Positions 1-38,627 of a DNA stretch of 43,637 nucleotides are shown piece by piece; position 1 is the stretch's first letter; every line of letters starts with the position of its first letter. The notes under the pieces were generated by a model that was not told where the DNA came from, made no database searches, and worked only from the letters and a program-made list of their open reading frames with translations. A program made the translations under genes and the position numbers. This stretch comes from Candidatus Eiseniibacteriota bacterium (lineage in GTDB: Bacteria > Eisenbacteria > RBG-16-71-46 > SZUA-252): NCBI GenBank assembly GCA_005893165.1, contig VBOR01000053.1, positions 1 through 43,637 of the forward strand, in the 5' to 3' direction.

Positions 1-283
1 AGATGTCGATCGTGCGAGTGGCTTCGGTCTCGAGCGTCTTCAGCTCTTCCTCCGTGAAGCGCACGTACTGGTCCTTGGCGAACTCGTACCCCTTGACCAG
101 AGAGGTTCTCTCCAATACTTCGTTGCAGGCGGGGCAGATCTGCTGCTGCTTGATCCGGCCGCCGCACTTTTCGTGGAGCAGGTTGAACGAGAGCCCCATG
201 GACGAGGCGGCGGTGTACATCTTGACGGGGATCGAAACCAGCCCGAACGAGAGCGTTCCCGATCCAATGGAATGTGGTGGCAT
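1..283 (-). CDS. ku: Ku protein, N-terminal part (cut by window edge)
   Basis: Bacterial Ku is a homodimeric ring that binds DNA double-strand ends and recruits LigD in non-homologous end joining. Only the first 94 codons are inside the window. They read GSGTLSFGLVSIPVKMYTA near the start, which is the typical first strand of prokaryotic Ku, followed by the LHEKCGGRIKQQQICPACN segment and KGYEFAKDQYVRFTEEEL, both standard in this family. The start is the ATG at 281-283, with an AAGGAGG ribosome site about six bases upstream. It is divergent from ligD with a 128-base gap, the usual Ku-LigD partnership. The rest of the gene (family length about 260-300 residues) lies off the left edge, so completeness cannot be judged. 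Confidence 0.95.
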   Translation of the reverse strand, partial: MPPHSIGSGTLSFGLVSIPVKMYTAASSMGLSFNLLHEKCGGRIKQQQICPACNEVLERTSLVKGYEFAKDQYVRFTEEELKTLETEATRTIDI

Positions 284-411: not shown

Positions 412-3027
412 TTGAGCTCGACCCGCGGTTCCCATCTCGAAAAATACCATCAGAAGCGGGACCCCGCCCGGACGCCCGAGCCCTTCGGGGGCGGCCGTCC
501 GCCGGCCGCGCAGGCCCCTGCCGGTGCGCCTCCCCGGTTCGTCGTCCAGAAGCACTGGGCGCGCAACATGCATTACGACCTCCGCCTCGAGCTGGACGGA
601 ACGCTCAAGAGTTGGGCGGTGCCCAAAGGGCCCTCGACGCGCGTGGAGGAGAAGAGGCTGGCGGTCCACGTCGAGGACCATCCTCTGGAGTACGGCTCGT
701 TCGAGGGAGTCATCCCGGCAGGGAACTACGGAGCCGGATCGGTCATCGTGTGGGATCACGGGTGGTTCCGCTCCTTCAAGCCCGAGGATCCGCTCGAGCA
801 GTACGAGCGTGGAAAGATGGAGCTGGAGCTCTTCGGATTCAAGCTCCGCGGGCGCTGGACGCTCGTGCGCATGGGCAAGAAGGAGAAGGAATGGCTCCTG
901 CTCAAGAAGGCGGACGGTGCCGCGAGCGAGAAGGAGGCGATCGATCGCTATCCCGAGTCGGTGATCACGGGATTCACGGTCGAGGAGATGCGGGACGTGC
1001 CCGGCACGCTCCAGGCGCTCCGGGAGCGGGTCCGGTCGCTGGGCGCGCCGAGGGGGGAGATTTCGATCCGCTCCGTGCCGCTCATGCTGGCCACGCTGGC
1101 GGAGCGCCCTCCCTCCGGGGCGGACTGGTGCTTCGAGATCAAGTACGACGGCGTGCGGGTGCTCGCGGAGCGAAAGCGCGATGGTGTGATCCTCATCGGG
1201 CGGAGCGGCGAGAACATCACCGGGCGGTATCCAGAGATCACGGCCGCTCTTCGCGCGCTGCCGCCGGATCGATTCGTGCTGGACGGCGAGATCGTCGCGG
1301 AGAACGAGAGCGGACGGCCCAGCTTCCAGCGGCTCCAGGCGCGCATGCACCTCACCAAGGCGCGCGACATCGAGGCTGCCCGGATGTGGGTTCCGGTGCG
1401 CGGCATCTTCTTCGACTGCCTCGGGCTCGAGGGGCATGACTTGCGCAAGCTTGCACTGTCGGAGCGCAAGGAGCTCCTCGCGCGCGTGGTGCCTCCTCTG
1501 GGAACGGTGCAGGGCTGCGATCACGTGCTGGAGCACGGCGAGGCATTCCTCGAGGCTGCTTCCGAGATGGGGCTCGAGGGGATCGTGGCGAAGCGGCTCA
1601 CGAGCCCGTACTCCGGCCGGCGGTCGGCGGACTGGATCAAGGTCAAATGCGACCGCCGGCAGGAATTCGTGATCGGCGGCTACACGGAGCCCCAGGGCTC
1701 GCGCGCCCGCTTCGGGGCCCTCCATGTCGGTCTCTATGAGGGGCGCCAGCTGGTCTACGTGACGAAAGTGGGCACCGGATTCGACACGGCGGGCCTCGAG
1801 AGCATCGCGCGGACGCTCGCGCCGCTCGGGCGCGAGACGTCTCCCTTCGACGTGGGGACGCCGGCGGGACGCGGGCATCACTGGGTCGAGCCGCGCCTCG
1901 TGTGCGAGATCCGATTCACGGAGTGGACGCGGGAGGGAGGGTTGCGCCATCCCATCTTCCTGGGATTGCGTCCCGACAAGCGCCCCGAGGATTGCCGCCG
2001 CGAGGAGCCGGTGCGGATCCGCGCCGCGGAGGAAACGCAGGTCAACGCGGCGAAGCCCACGAACGCGGCGAAGCCCACGAACGTGGTGAAGCCCACGAAC
2101 GTGGTGAAGCCCACCAACGTGAAGAAGGTCTTCTGGCCCAAGGAGGGCTACACCAAGGGCGATCTCATCCAGTACTACGAATCAGTGGCACCGCTTCTCC
2201 TGCCCTACCTGCGCGACCGCCCTCTGGTGCTGACGAGATTCCCCGACGGGATCGATGGAAAATCCTTCTTCCAGAAGGACGCGCCCGTGTACGTGCCCGA
2301 CTGGGTCCGCACGGAAGTCGTGCACTCCGGAGACGGGGAGCGCGACATCCGCTACTTCGTCGTGGACGACCTCGAGTCGCTGCGCTACGTGGCGAACATG
2401 GGAACGATTCCGCTCCACGTCTGGAGCGCCTGCGTGAGCTCCCTCGAGAACCCGGATTGGCTCGTGCTCGATCTCGATCCCAAGGAAGCGCCGTTCGCGC
2501 ACGTCGTCCAGGTGGCGCGCGCGCTGAAGACGATCCTGGACGAGCTCGAGCTTCCCGCCTTCATCAAGACTTCCGGCGCCACCGGCCTGCACGTGCTGCT
2601 TCCCATGGGCCGCCGGTACACGCATGAGGAGACGCGAACCTTCGCGCGGCTGCTCGCGATGCTGGCCGTGGACGCCGTGCCCGAGATCTCGACCGTCACG
2701 CGCTCGATCAAGGGGCGCGGCGGCAAGGTGTACGTCGATTTCGGTCAGAATGGACGGGGGAACACGATCGTCGCGCCCTACTCCGTGCGCCCGCTTCCCG
2801 GAGCGCCCGCCTCCTGTCCCTTGCGCTGGGATGAGGTGACGGCGCGGCTCGATCCCGCCCGCTTCACCATCCGCACGATCCCGGAACGCTTCGAGAAGAT
2901 GCCGGATCCCGCGATCGACGTGTTCGGGCCTGGCGTGGACATGGCTTCCGCGATCGGGGCGATCGGGCGCCGGATGAGGAACGGGCGCGAGAAGGATTCG
3001 GCGACCGCGAAGAAGAGCCGCAAGTGA
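412..3027 (+). CDS. ligD: LigD: multifunctional NHEJ DNA ligase (phosphoesterase-ligase-polymerase)
   Basis: LigD processes and seals double-strand breaks held by Ku. The 871-residue protein has the Pseudomonas-type domain order. Phosphoesterase domain, about 40-190: H48, H54, D56, R58, H90 and Y94 match the known active-site set of P. aeruginosa LigD at a constant offset of six. ATP-dependent ligase domain, about 220-535: adenylated lysine K244 in EIKYDGVR and motif EGIVAKR. Primase-type polymerase domain, about 570-850: metal-binding D687 and D689 in VLDLDP. A four-copy NxxKPT linker joins the last two. The start is taken as TTG 412 because no in-frame ATG precedes the catalytic region (the first is M53); the ribosome site is weak. 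The stop overlaps the next gene's GTG. Confidence 0.96.
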   Translation: MSSTRGSHLEKYHQKRDPARTPEPFGGGRPPAAQAPAGAPPRFVVQKHWARNMHYDLRLELDGTLKSWAVPKGPSTRVEEKRLAVHVEDHPLEYGSFEGVIPAGNYGAGSVIVWDHGWFRSFKPEDPLEQYERGKMELELFGFKLRGRWTLVRMGKKEKEWLLLKKADGAASEKEAIDRYPESVITGFTVEEMRDVPGTLQALRERVRSLGAPRGEISIRSVPLMLATLAERPPSGADWCFEIKYDGVRVLAERKRDGVILIGRSGENITGRYPEITAALRALPPDRFVLDGEIVAENESGRPSFQRLQARMHLTKARDIEAARMWVPVRGIFFDCLGLEGHDLRKLALSERKELLARVVPPLGTVQGCDHVLEHGEAFLEAASEMGLEGIVAKRLTSPYSGRRSADWIKVKCDRRQEFVIGGYTEPQGSRARFGALHVGLYEGRQLVYVTKVGTGFDTAGLESIARTLAPLGRETSPFDVGTPAGRGHHWVEPRLVCEIRFTEWTREGGLRHPIFLGLRPDKRPEDCRREEPVRIRAAEETQVNAAKPTNAAKPTNVVKPTNVVKPTNVKKVFWPKEGYTKGDLIQYYESVAPLLLPYLRDRPLVLTRFPDGIDGKSFFQKDAPVYVPDWVRTEVVHSGDGERDIRYFVVDDLESLRYVANMGTIPLHVWSACVSSLENPDWLVLDLDPKEAPFAHVVQVARALKTILDELELPAFIKTSGATGLHVLLPMGRRYTHEETRTFARLLAMLAVDAVPEISTVTRSIKGRGGKVYVDFGQNGRGNTIVAPYSVRPLPGAPASCPLRWDEVTARLDPARFTIRTIPERFEKMPDPAIDVFGPGVDMASAIGAIGRRMRNGREKDSATAKKSRK
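2044..2115 (+). repeat. 18-base tandem repeat, four copies, in the ligD linker
   Basis: Four in-frame 18-base units (2044, 2062, 2080, 2098) encode NAAKPT, NAAKPT, NVVKPT and NVVKPT. Units 1-2 are identical in DNA and units 3-4 differ only at the last base. They sit exactly between the ligase and polymerase domains, so copy number would change linker length without breaking the frame. Confidence 0.95.
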
Positions 3028-36075: not shown

Positions 36076-37146
36076 TCAGCCCCCGTGGTCGCGCGCCTTG
36101 GCTCGGACCCCATTCGGTTCCAGTAGACCGAGCAAGGAGCCCTCGGGGCGCGCGATCTGCTCGAACGTGCATTGGCGCGGCGCCTTGTCGGGGCGCCAGC
36201 GCACGAGCCGCGTCCCGTGGCGGAATCGCTCGCCGCTGACGTGATCGTATTCCACTTCCACCACCAGCTTGGGCTGAAGCGGCTTCCACTCCCCCGAGCG
36301 CTCCGTGCTCCAACGGCTGGGTCCCCCCGGGGCCTTGCCGGTGAAGCCGGGCGGCTTGATCAGCTTCTCCAGCTTGGGGACCAGCGCCGCCTTCTCCGCG
36401 CCCGACATGCCGGACGTGAACCCCACGTGGTGAAGGAGCCCCTCGTCATCGTAGAGCCCGAGCAGGAGCGAGCCGATGACGTGCCCCTTGGACGCGTACC
36501 GGAATCCGCCGACCACGCAGTCCGCGGTGCGCCGCTGCTTGATCTTCTGCATGCCGGTCCGGTCGCCGGAGTGGTAGGGAAGATCCCGCCGCTTCGCGAT
36601 GACGCCGTCCAGGGCACCGCCGGTCTTCTCGTACCAGCGTATCGCCGTCCTCGGATCGTCCGCTGCCGGAGACAGTCGAACGCGCGGATGCTTCCGGAGA
36701 TACTTCCCGGCGAACGCTTCGAGGCGCTTCCGGCGCTCCTCGAGCCTCAGCTCGACGAGAGACGCTCCGCTCTCGTCGACGAGAAGATCGAACACGATGA
36801 GCATCGCGGGAGTCTCGACGGACAGCTTGCGGATGCGGCTCTCCGCCGGATGGATGCGCATGAGGAGATCGTCGAACGACAGGGTTTTCCCGCTCGGGAT
36901 CACCAGCTCGCCGTCCAGGACGAAGCGCGGCGCCTCGATCTGCAAGAGCGCCTCCACGATCTCCGGGAAATAGCGCTCCAGGGGCTCCCCGGCCTTCGAC
37001 TGGAGCGCCACCTTCTCGCCGTCGCGGAACGCGAGGCAGCGAAACCCGTCCCACTTGGGCTCGTACTGCCATTCCGGGCCCGTGGGAATCCGATCGACCG
37101 AGAGCGCCTCCATGGGCGGGTAGGGACGACGGAGCGGAAGCGTCAC
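36076..37146 (-). CDS. ATP-dependent DNA ligase (LigC-like, ligase domain only)
   Basis: A 356-residue ligase without phosphoesterase or polymerase domains. The adenylation motif has K31 in YEPKWDGFR. Other nucleotidyltransferase motifs: FVLDGELVIP, VFDLLVDESG, GALDGVIAKRRDLPYHSGDR and KIKQRRTADCVVGG. The OB-fold follows, ending with VRWRPDKAPRQCTFEQI. This size and set fit the LigC group of bacterial ATP-dependent ligases, known in mycobacteria to give backup end joining and to act in base-excision repair. The start is GTG 37146, overlapping the stop of the polymerase fusion gene (GTGA), so the two are coupled. Confidence 0.92.
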   Translation of the reverse strand: MTLPLRRPYPPMEALSVDRIPTGPEWQYEPKWDGFRCLAFRDGEKVALQSKAGEPLERYFPEIVEALLQIEAPRFVLDGELVIPSGKTLSFDDLLMRIHPAESRIRKLSVETPAMLIVFDLLVDESGASLVELRLEERRKRLEAFAGKYLRKHPRVRLSPAADDPRTAIRWYEKTGGALDGVIAKRRDLPYHSGDRTGMQKIKQRRTADCVVGGFRYASKGHVIGSLLLGLYDDEGLLHHVGFTSGMSGAEKAALVPKLEKLIKPPGFTGKAPGGPSRWSTERSGEWKPLQPKLVVEVEYDHVSGERFRHGTRLVRWRPDKAPRQCTFEQIARPEGSLLGLLEPNGVRAKARDHGG

Positions 37147-38627
37147 AGGAAGCGCTCCAGGCGCACGCGGCCGCGCGGAGCGAGCAGAGGCTTCCAGAGA
37201 TCGCCCACCTTGGCGACGCGCTGAGGCATGTTGTCGATCCGGAAATCCTCGATGCGGATCCCCCGCTCCAGCTCCTCCCACGACACAGGCGCGGACACGG
37301 TCGCTTTGGGCTGGGGGCGCACCGAGTAGATCGACGCCAGCGTCCGTCCCCAGGCATTCTGGTTGTAATCGACGAGCACGTGGCCCGCGGGACGCTTCGC
37401 GACCCGGTATTCGGCGGTAATGAGCTTGGGGGCCTGCACCGCGAGCGCGATCGCGAAGCTCTTCGCGAAGGTCCAGACGTCCTTCTGCAGGGGTCCGCGC
37501 TGGATCGGAACGTAGACGTGAATCCCCTTCGAGCCCGTGGTCTTCGCGTAGCAGGGCATTCCCAATCCCTCGAGGCCTCGTCGGACGAGGAGGGCGGTCT
37601 CGATCACCTGCTTGAACGTGGCGCCGGTCACCGGATCGAGATCGAAATGGAGGTAGTCGGGCCGGTTGTAATCGTCGCAGCGCGCGTACCAGGGGTTCAG
37701 GTCGATGCAGCCGAGGTTGATCACCCACAGGAGTGAAGCCAGGTCCTGGACGATGGGGAAGTCGATGACATTCCCCGAACCGTGAGGGATGCGGCACGTC
37801 CGGATCCAATCCGGTCTCGGCGAGGGCGCGCGCTTCATGAAGAAGAAATCGCCGTGCGCGCCGTTCGGGTAGCGCTTCATCACCATGGCACGGTCGGTCA
37901 GATGCGGAAGGAGCGCGGGTGCGATGTGCGCGTAATACTGAAGGAGATCGCGCTTCGTGATTCCCAGCTCCGGCCAGAACAGCTTGTCCAGGTTCGTGAG
38001 CCGGAGCGTTTCGCCGCCGAACTCGATCTCGACGTTCGATACATCCTTGGGGATCGCGGCGGCCAGCACGCAGCGAAGCATGAGCCCGCCGCGGCTCATG
38101 TCCCCGCGGCCCACGAAGTCACAGGGGAAGCGAAGGCGGCCGTCGAAGTGGCTCTCGATGATGTCCACGTACTTTCCGGTCGCGATGCTTCCCAGGAGCA
38201 CCACGCGGTCCTCTCGAGCGAGGACGGAGGCCAGTGCCGCGGAATCGCGCTCGAGGGGCTCGCGGAATCGCGCCTCGTTCGGCGTGACGCCGACCGAGGC
38301 GATGGAGCGCAGGTCTGGAAGCCCGACGATCGTATCCGGGGAGATCAGCCCGCGTCCCGGCGTGATGACGAGCACTCCGTCGGGCGCCGTCCGGGAGTGC
38401 GCGAAGGCGCGCCCGTACGCCAGCTTTCCGCGAAAATAGAGGCCGCTGAGAAAGCTGAATACGTCTCCGATGGGCGCTCCCTGCTCGCGCAGCCGGACGG
38501 CCAGGGGAAATGCGGCGCGCTCGCTGAGGAGAATCTGGGCACGCCTTCCGCCGCAATGAGCGGGGGAAAGAAGGAACACGGTTTGCGGATGCGCCGGAGC
38601 GCGCTTCTTCCTCGGGCGGGAGGGCAT
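37143..38627 (-). CDS. LigD-type polymerase (PolDom/PrimPol) fused to an unknown N-terminal domain
   Basis: A 494-residue protein. Residues about 205-480 are a LigD-type archaeo-eukaryotic primase polymerase: LTNLDKLFWPELGITKRDLLQYY, MVMKRYPNGAHGDFFFMK, metal-binding D329 and D331 in HFDLDPV, TGSKGIHVYVPI and VDYNQNAWGRTLASIYSVR. Residues about 15-195 are not part of that family: FLLSPAHCGGRRAQILL, FSFLSGLYFRGKLAYGRAF, GVLVITPGRGLISPDT, VVLLGSIATGKYVDI and FVGRGDMSRGGLMLRC. I recall stand-alone proteins like this but no function. Start ATG 38627. It is coupled to the LigC-like ligase, which would seal ends filled by this polymerase. Confidence 0.88.
   Translation of the reverse strand: MPSRPRKKRAPAHPQTVFLLSPAHCGGRRAQILLSERAAFPLAVRLREQGAPIGDVFSFLSGLYFRGKLAYGRAFAHSRTAPDGVLVITPGRGLISPDTIVGLPDLRSIASVGVTPNEARFREPLERDSAALASVLAREDRVVLLGSIATGKYVDIIESHFDGRLRFPCDFVGRGDMSRGGLMLRCVLAAAIPKDVSNVEIEFGGETLRLTNLDKLFWPELGITKRDLLQYYAHIAPALLPHLTDRAMVMKRYPNGAHGDFFFMKRAPSPRPDWIRTCRIPHGSGNVIDFPIVQDLASLLWVINLGCIDLNPWYARCDDYNRPDYLHFDLDPVTGATFKQVIETALLVRRGLEGLGMPCYAKTTGSKGIHVYVPIQRGPLQKDVWTFAKSFAIALAVQAPKLITAEYRVAKRPAGHVLVDYNQNAWGRTLASIYSVRPQPKATVSAPVSWEELERGIRIEDFRIDNMPQRVAKVGDLWKPLLAPRGRVRLERFL

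Follow-up and report, generated by a model that had tools for sequence, protein, structure and literature searches.

Bacterial end joining has been described as a two-protein system of Ku and LigD (PMC3102665), and a 5'-dRP lyase activity of LigD links it to base excision repair (PMC4770248). Of about 6,000 complete genomes, 22% had non-homologous end joining (NHEJ), which generally accompanies large genomes and slow growth (PMC7719229). In mycobacteria, the stand-alone ligase LigC and the polymerase Prim-PolC perform base excision repair (BER); they are co-transcribed in some species with FPG, and Prim-PolC fills short gaps with ribonucleotides (PMC5663958). A different set of proteins is formed by YaaA and DUF6884, whose kinship is stated by Pfam. 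According to the 2024 Pfam paper, a positively charged cleft is common to both, and YfjM, a DUF6884 protein, binds abasic and RNA-base lesions (PMC11701544). In YaaA, this cleft corresponds to residues 209–213 (PMC8843374). The E. coli protein binds DNA and lowers unincorporated iron under peroxide stress, and the molecular function of the group has been called unknown (PMC4834066). Here we describe a locus of Candidatus Eiseniibacteriota in which a domain resembling the second set of proteins is joined to repair enzymes resembling the first.

The fused protein and its family

The window, i.e. the whole stretch of 43,637 nucleotides that was analysed (VBOR01000053.1), is contig C120 in an assembly of 143 contigs and 2.5 Mb. 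An open and in-frame ORF of 494 aa with an ATG start is located at 37143–38627 on the minus strand. The original prediction placed a domain of about 190 residues before a complete polymerase in this ORF; that is what the ORF encodes, and all the strings quoted for it are present. The N-terminal YaaA/DUF6884-like domain comprises residues 1–197 (38037–38627, minus strand), with a conserved core at about residues 16–188. Four motifs on the minus strand mark it: SGLYFRGK (residues 61–68, 38424–38447), with six of its eight residues invariant, K68 included; GLISPD (from residue 93, 38334–38351), which follows VITPGR and aligns with LSAxxGL of DUF6884; LLGSIATGKY (residues 144–153, 38169–38198), with an invariant K152; and GRGDMSRGG (residues 173–181, 38085–38111), in which R174, D176 and R179 are invariant. 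At the fusion junction (38034–38054, minus strand) the last helix of the domain passes into IPKDVSN, resembling the N terminus of stand-alone Prim-Pols, and the C-terminal tail kept in stand-alone relatives of the domain (consensus ELxYxPVxGAVRxGxRPPKL) is missing.

The second part of the ORF (37143–38012, minus strand) is a LigD-type Prim-Pol domain. It matches Pfam LigD_Prim-Pol (PF21686) over residues 224–478, covering profile positions 1–254 of 254 (E 7e-85), and its motifs are intact: FDLDP at residue 328, TTGSKGIH (with GSKGIH) at 363 and VLVDYN at 417. Both metal aspartates expected of the polymerase are present, as well as a third aspartate (FDLDP, VLVDYN); their catalytic roles are those generally attributed to these residues in the family. 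The Prim-Pol stop shares a GTGA overlap with the most likely start, GTG 37146, of a stand-alone ATP-dependent DNA ligase of 356 aa (36076–37146, minus strand). The ligase has an EPKWDGFR motif and the Pfam domains DNA_ligase_A_M and A_C. At the other end of the contig, a Ku gene truncated by the contig border, of which the 5' part is left (2–250, minus strand; profile 1–84 of 190), is divergent from a complete, separate LigD with three domains, 3'-phosphoesterase, ligase and Prim-Pol (412–3027, plus strand). A second Ku of this genome lies on contig C105. Since Ku and a complete three-domain LigD are on the window contig, the genome has conventional NHEJ besides the Prim-Pol/ligase pair.

A tblastn search with the N-terminal part alone as query gave 96 confirmed relatives (one genome per species) in at least seven phyla. 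The best 80 of the 96 were kept; going by their record titles, 37 are from Verrucomicrobia, 17 from Acidobacteria, 9 from Gemmatimonadota, 8 from Rokubacteria, 5 from Myxococcota, 2 from 'Deltaproteobacteria', and one each from 'Proteobacteria' and Eisenbacteria. Cultivable carriers are represented by Anaeromyxobacter species (L068 and L078). The relatives are mostly stand-alone ORFs of about 205–225 aa. In the phylum of the window, the domain is present in 5 of 47 genomes. The alignment A1 has 80 rows, i.e. the window and 79 of the 80 loci, leaving out L046, which is broken by a stop. It has 35 invariant columns, among them SPA, R29, SxLYFxGK, LGSxA, KY and FVGRGDM. The proteins are very basic, with a median pI of 10.3 (range 9.1–11.6). 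Because the N-terminal domain finds 96 relatives with its own query and shows 35 invariant columns, it is more than a chance extension; judged by this conservation, it is a real, previously undescribed protein family. Relatives were not found in phages, plasmids or viral contigs. Residues 1–207 of the fused ORF have no match in Pfam or NCBIfam, and scanning the 80 members singly against Pfam, NCBIfam and PHROGs gave scattered weak matches, each in at most four members. The domain is thus not an accessory region already described for PrimPol proteins, as far as the family libraries tell. The literature searched (titles and the starts of abstracts, with most subscription papers and preprints outside) mentions no such accessory region and, within the same limits, no YaaA- or DUF6884-like protein tied to a Prim-Pol or ligase. 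Two PDB-sequence matches of the domain, to LmuC (E 0.38) and to isocitrate dehydrogenase (E 0.0095), were taken as chance.

Kinship with YaaA and DUF6884

AlphaFold2 models were obtained for the window domain (pLDDT 88) and for the stand-alone L074 protein (pLDDT 93). When the Foldseek candidates were re-ranked, E. coli YaaA (5caj) came first for the window model, with a Z score of 5.7, an rmsd of 4.1 and 144 aligned residues. It was also first for the L074 model (Z 5.8, rmsd 4.2, 154 aligned; next row 4.8). Such Z scores of 5.7–5.8 are modest and under the level that the tool calls safe, and neither model matched a PDB entry at E ≤ 0.001 in Foldseek. Against BFVD, a collection of viral predicted structures, the top row is a phage protein named YaaA (E 5.4e-4, probability 1.00) and the second a phage DUF6884 protein (probability 0.99).

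Profile comparison with hhalign gave a score of 32.4 (P 3.7e-4) for the family against DUF6884, the maximum over 150 column shuffles being 20.6 and the reversed profile reaching 17.2. The DUF6884 profile covers 10 of the 15 loci with a good search match, the other five being without the motif required by the script. The alignment pairs SGLYFRGKLAYA...VITPGRGLISPD of the family with the DUF6884 stretch around LSAxxGL. Against YaaA (15 sequences) the score was 20.7, which 4 of 150 shuffles reached and which is therefore not significant. At the level of single sequences, none of the 80 members matches PF03883 (YaaA) at E ≤ 1, and DUF6884 (PF21818) is below Pfam detection in the 80 members. The YaaA and DUF6884 profiles match each other (probability 93). 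Residues 209–213 of E. coli YaaA read KKARG, and by eye an RGxMSR motif can be recognised near the C terminus of both YaaA (KKARGLMSRF) and the family (VGRGDMSRGG), a reading made without a significant alignment. The modelled fold and the DUF6884 profile thus support the predicted resemblance to YaaA/DUF6884, whereas the direct profile comparison with YaaA does not reach significance.

The likeness to E. coli YaaA (PF03883, DUF328/UPF0246) lies in its being the top structural match of the two models, in an SPA near the N terminus and in the RGxMSR stretch. However, the lysine of the YaaA ISPAK is not kept in the family, where the residue after the invariant SPA is mostly Y, H, N or R; YaaA has 258 aa, longer than the usual size of the family; and the family is linked to Prim-Pol and ligase and is without a sequence-profile match to YaaA. 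With DUF6884 (e.g. B. subtilis YfjM), the family shares the significant profile match over YFRGKLAYA...VITPxRGL and the structural match, whereas the CxxxK and LSAxxG of DUF6884 correspond to SPAxxGGxR and ITPxRG in the family. The models and profiles suggest that the domain likely represents a separate, new family within the YaaA/DUF6884 group (the 'cantaloupe' fold), belonging to neither Pfam family.

Repair partners and co-occurrence with Ku

Gene neighbourhoods were counted at 83 loci, after removal of L002 and L003, which are the window itself, and of L004, which comes from the genome of L008. In 51 of them, the gene at most 350 nt downstream on the same strand encodes a ligase (26), a Prim-Pol (21) or a small AAA_33 kinase (4). 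In 58 of the 83 loci, one or more genes of the Prim-Pol, ligase, PolX, LigD_N, AAA_33 kinase or ExoIII-like kind lie within 1.3 kb; this number includes L053 and L081, whose ligase matches are on the opposite strand. This linkage was not built in, because the query had no Prim-Pol or ligase sequence. It spans Verrucomicrobia, Acidobacteria, Rokubacteria, Gemmatimonadota, Deltaproteobacteria and Eisenbacteria. Seven loci, of which six are from Rokubacteria, have PolX immediately upstream of the domain, and Pfam scans of examples confirmed the PolX, ExoIII-like, LigD_N, ligase and AAA_33 neighbours. The remaining 25 loci, including all five from Myxococcota, have no repair neighbour; four of these (L007, L019, L034 and L076) have about 1.1 kb of downstream sequence or less, and the rest have more. 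Domain and Prim-Pol are in one ORF in the window and in a single one of the 83 other loci (L028, 576 aa). The fusion had been taken to imply a role at DNA ends or on nucleotides. Fusion is too rare to carry much of that argument, and the role is supported more by adjacency and Ku; among the loci counted, a stand-alone domain beside repair genes is the common arrangement.

Several loci depart from the usual order. Four Acidobacteria have, no more than 90 nt behind the domain gene, a gene for an AAA_33 protein of about 145 aa with GLQGSGKTT and VDNT (L081:5603–6040 and L083:2157–2594; matches also in L086 and L087), perhaps a polynucleotide kinase from its motifs. In another member of the Acidobacteria, an ExoIII-type endonuclease gene (L026:6630–7490) is directly behind domain and Prim-Pol. 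A Verrucomicrobia subgroup (L024, L029, L033, L041) keeps the domain without the ligase, and the next same-strand protein, of about 150–174 aa, is CBS-domain-like by eye. The 363-aa protein directly upstream of the domain at L005:2075–3166 has the HhH and PHP parts of PolX; its polymerase beta domains were not found by Pfam.

The linked enzymes are themselves closely related. The 23 domain-linked Prim-Pols, from several phyla, are 67–83% identical to that of the window over the aligned part, whereas identity to it drops to about 40% for those of L053 and L081 and of the window's own LigD. In a FastTree of 23 sequences, the 20 domain-linked Prim-Pols, the window included, stand on one side of a branch with a support of 0.997. 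Same-strand linked ligases are 58–82% identical to the window ligase, against 43–44% for the divergent ligases of L053 and L081. At the level of sequence, these comparisons show that the domain has dedicated Prim-Pol and ligase partner types. L053, L081 and L130 contain another type of stand-alone Prim-Pol, paired with a ligase that points in the opposite direction (about 40% and about 45% identical to the window pair), and in L053 and L081 this Prim-Pol has a long C-terminal extension.

Ku was found in 79 of the 80 carrier genomes (50 of 50 and 29 of 30), the exception being a 2.0-Mb assembly. Two yardsticks are available, the published 22% and the phylum of the window (47 genomes). In the latter, 16 of 47 genomes have Ku, among them all five domain carriers (P 0.003, unadjusted for kinship); outside the window's own family it is in both of two carriers (P 0.05), which is weak once kinship is considered. 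Since NHEJ tends to accompany large genomes and slow growth, this co-occurrence is an association, not proof. No Ku gene is within the fetched flanks of the domain at any of the 83 loci.

Possible functions of the domain

The reading that we favour, with a probability of roughly 55%, is that the domain is a protein of the YaaA/DUF6884 group recognising DNA lesions or ends and serving a dedicated gap-filling Prim-Pol and ligase in Ku-bearing bacteria. This small, very basic protein would bind DNA and would probably recognise damaged or unusual nucleotides (abasic, oxidised or ribonucleotides) at gaps and broken ends. It would then hand the site to its partners, the LigD-type Prim-Pol filling the short gap and the ATP ligase sealing it, in bacteria that have Ku-based end joining as well. 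The domain gene of the window is fused to that of the Prim-Pol. What the analysis itself shows is the family with its gene linkage and its co-occurrence with Ku, together with a likely fold group. DNA binding is suggested by analogy with the relative YaaA, and lesion recognition by the affinity of YfjM for abasic and RNA-base lesions. Compared with NHEJ by LigD and Ku, the system shares the Prim-Pol family PF21686 and the presence of Ku in nearly all carrier genomes. It differs by its separate genes and its additional YaaA-like protein, and the window has a full LigD as well.

A Ku-independent BER complex similar to mycobacterial LigC/Prim-PolC, in which the domain would be a glycosylase or AP-lyase in place of FPG, was the interpretation first favoured as a stand-alone pathway, and the Ku search served as its test. 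Because 79 of 80 carrier genomes have Ku, NHEJ-linked repair was moved up and BER was kept as a rival, unlikely but still to be taken seriously. As in mycobacteria, a stand-alone Prim-Pol and a stand-alone ATP ligase accompany a putative lesion-handling gene, which in some mycobacterial species is in the operon; judged by bit score, 5op0 (Prim-PolC) and 6sa0 are the solved structures nearest to the window Prim-Pol (178; next 173); and PolX, ExoIII-like and AAA_33 kinase neighbours suit excision repair. However, the lesion gene there is FPG, and all 19 domain-linked Prim-Pols reaching their own stop end 9–25 residues past position 280 of the window Prim-Pol (four further ones are cut by contig ends), i.e. 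they are without the C-terminal extension of Prim-PolC (alpha 8 and Loop 3, about 40 residues). The frequency of Ku also exceeds the need of a Ku-independent pathway, although mycobacteria have both. Recognition of damaged or ribonucleotides beside a Prim-Pol and a ligase would fit end joining and BER alike. It is doubtful that the domain is a non-catalytic NHEJ accessory, a tether or clamp that has no lesion specificity and recruits the polymerase and the ligase to Ku-bound ends. The Ku co-occurrence, the basic character of the protein and the swapping of partners between Prim-Pol and ligase would agree with such a function, but the 35 invariant columns, with K68, K152, D176, R174 and R179, are more suggestive of an active site or a site for nucleotide binding, and Ku is never adjacent to the domain.

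An oxidative-stress or iron protein like YaaA, linked to repair genes by co-regulation only, appears very improbable. Neither PF03883 nor DUF6884 is present in 46 genomes of the window's phylum, so that the domain could replace YaaA there, and the peroxide phenotype of the E. coli protein points the same way; yet the partners are repair enzymes in several combinations, with two direct fusions and the GTGA overlap. As for the fusion itself, the missing tail of the domain and the two separate genes in the nearest relative with the gene pair (L006) could mean an assembly error or a decayed gene. We consider this improbable: the 494-aa frame is open, both parts are intact with their invariant residues, and a second fusion exists in L028.

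Within the favoured reading of a lesion- or end-recognition protein, one may speculate from their invariance that K68, K152, D176, R174 and R179 form the catalytic pocket of a glycosylase or AP-lyase. A bolder proposal, which we consider rather unlikely, is that the family is a missing component of end joining, a YaaA-superfamily enzyme that would act at gaps and break ends, flipping out and excising damaged residues or ribonucleotides and leaving a clean gap for its dedicated Prim-Pol and ligase. It would then be a glycosylase or AP/ribonucleotide lyase of a new class.

A YaaA-like family beside a Prim-Pol and a ligase suggests an unrecognised partner in bacterial repair of DNA breaks or gaps. 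The family is absent from the family libraries searched and is a candidate additional protein for bacterial end joining; it is conserved in a number of soil phyla that have received little study. Through it, the YaaA/DUF6884 group is connected with defined biochemical partners, and its function is directly testable with three purified proteins. If the family proves to be an excising enzyme, this would supply a molecular function for YaaA and DUF6884.
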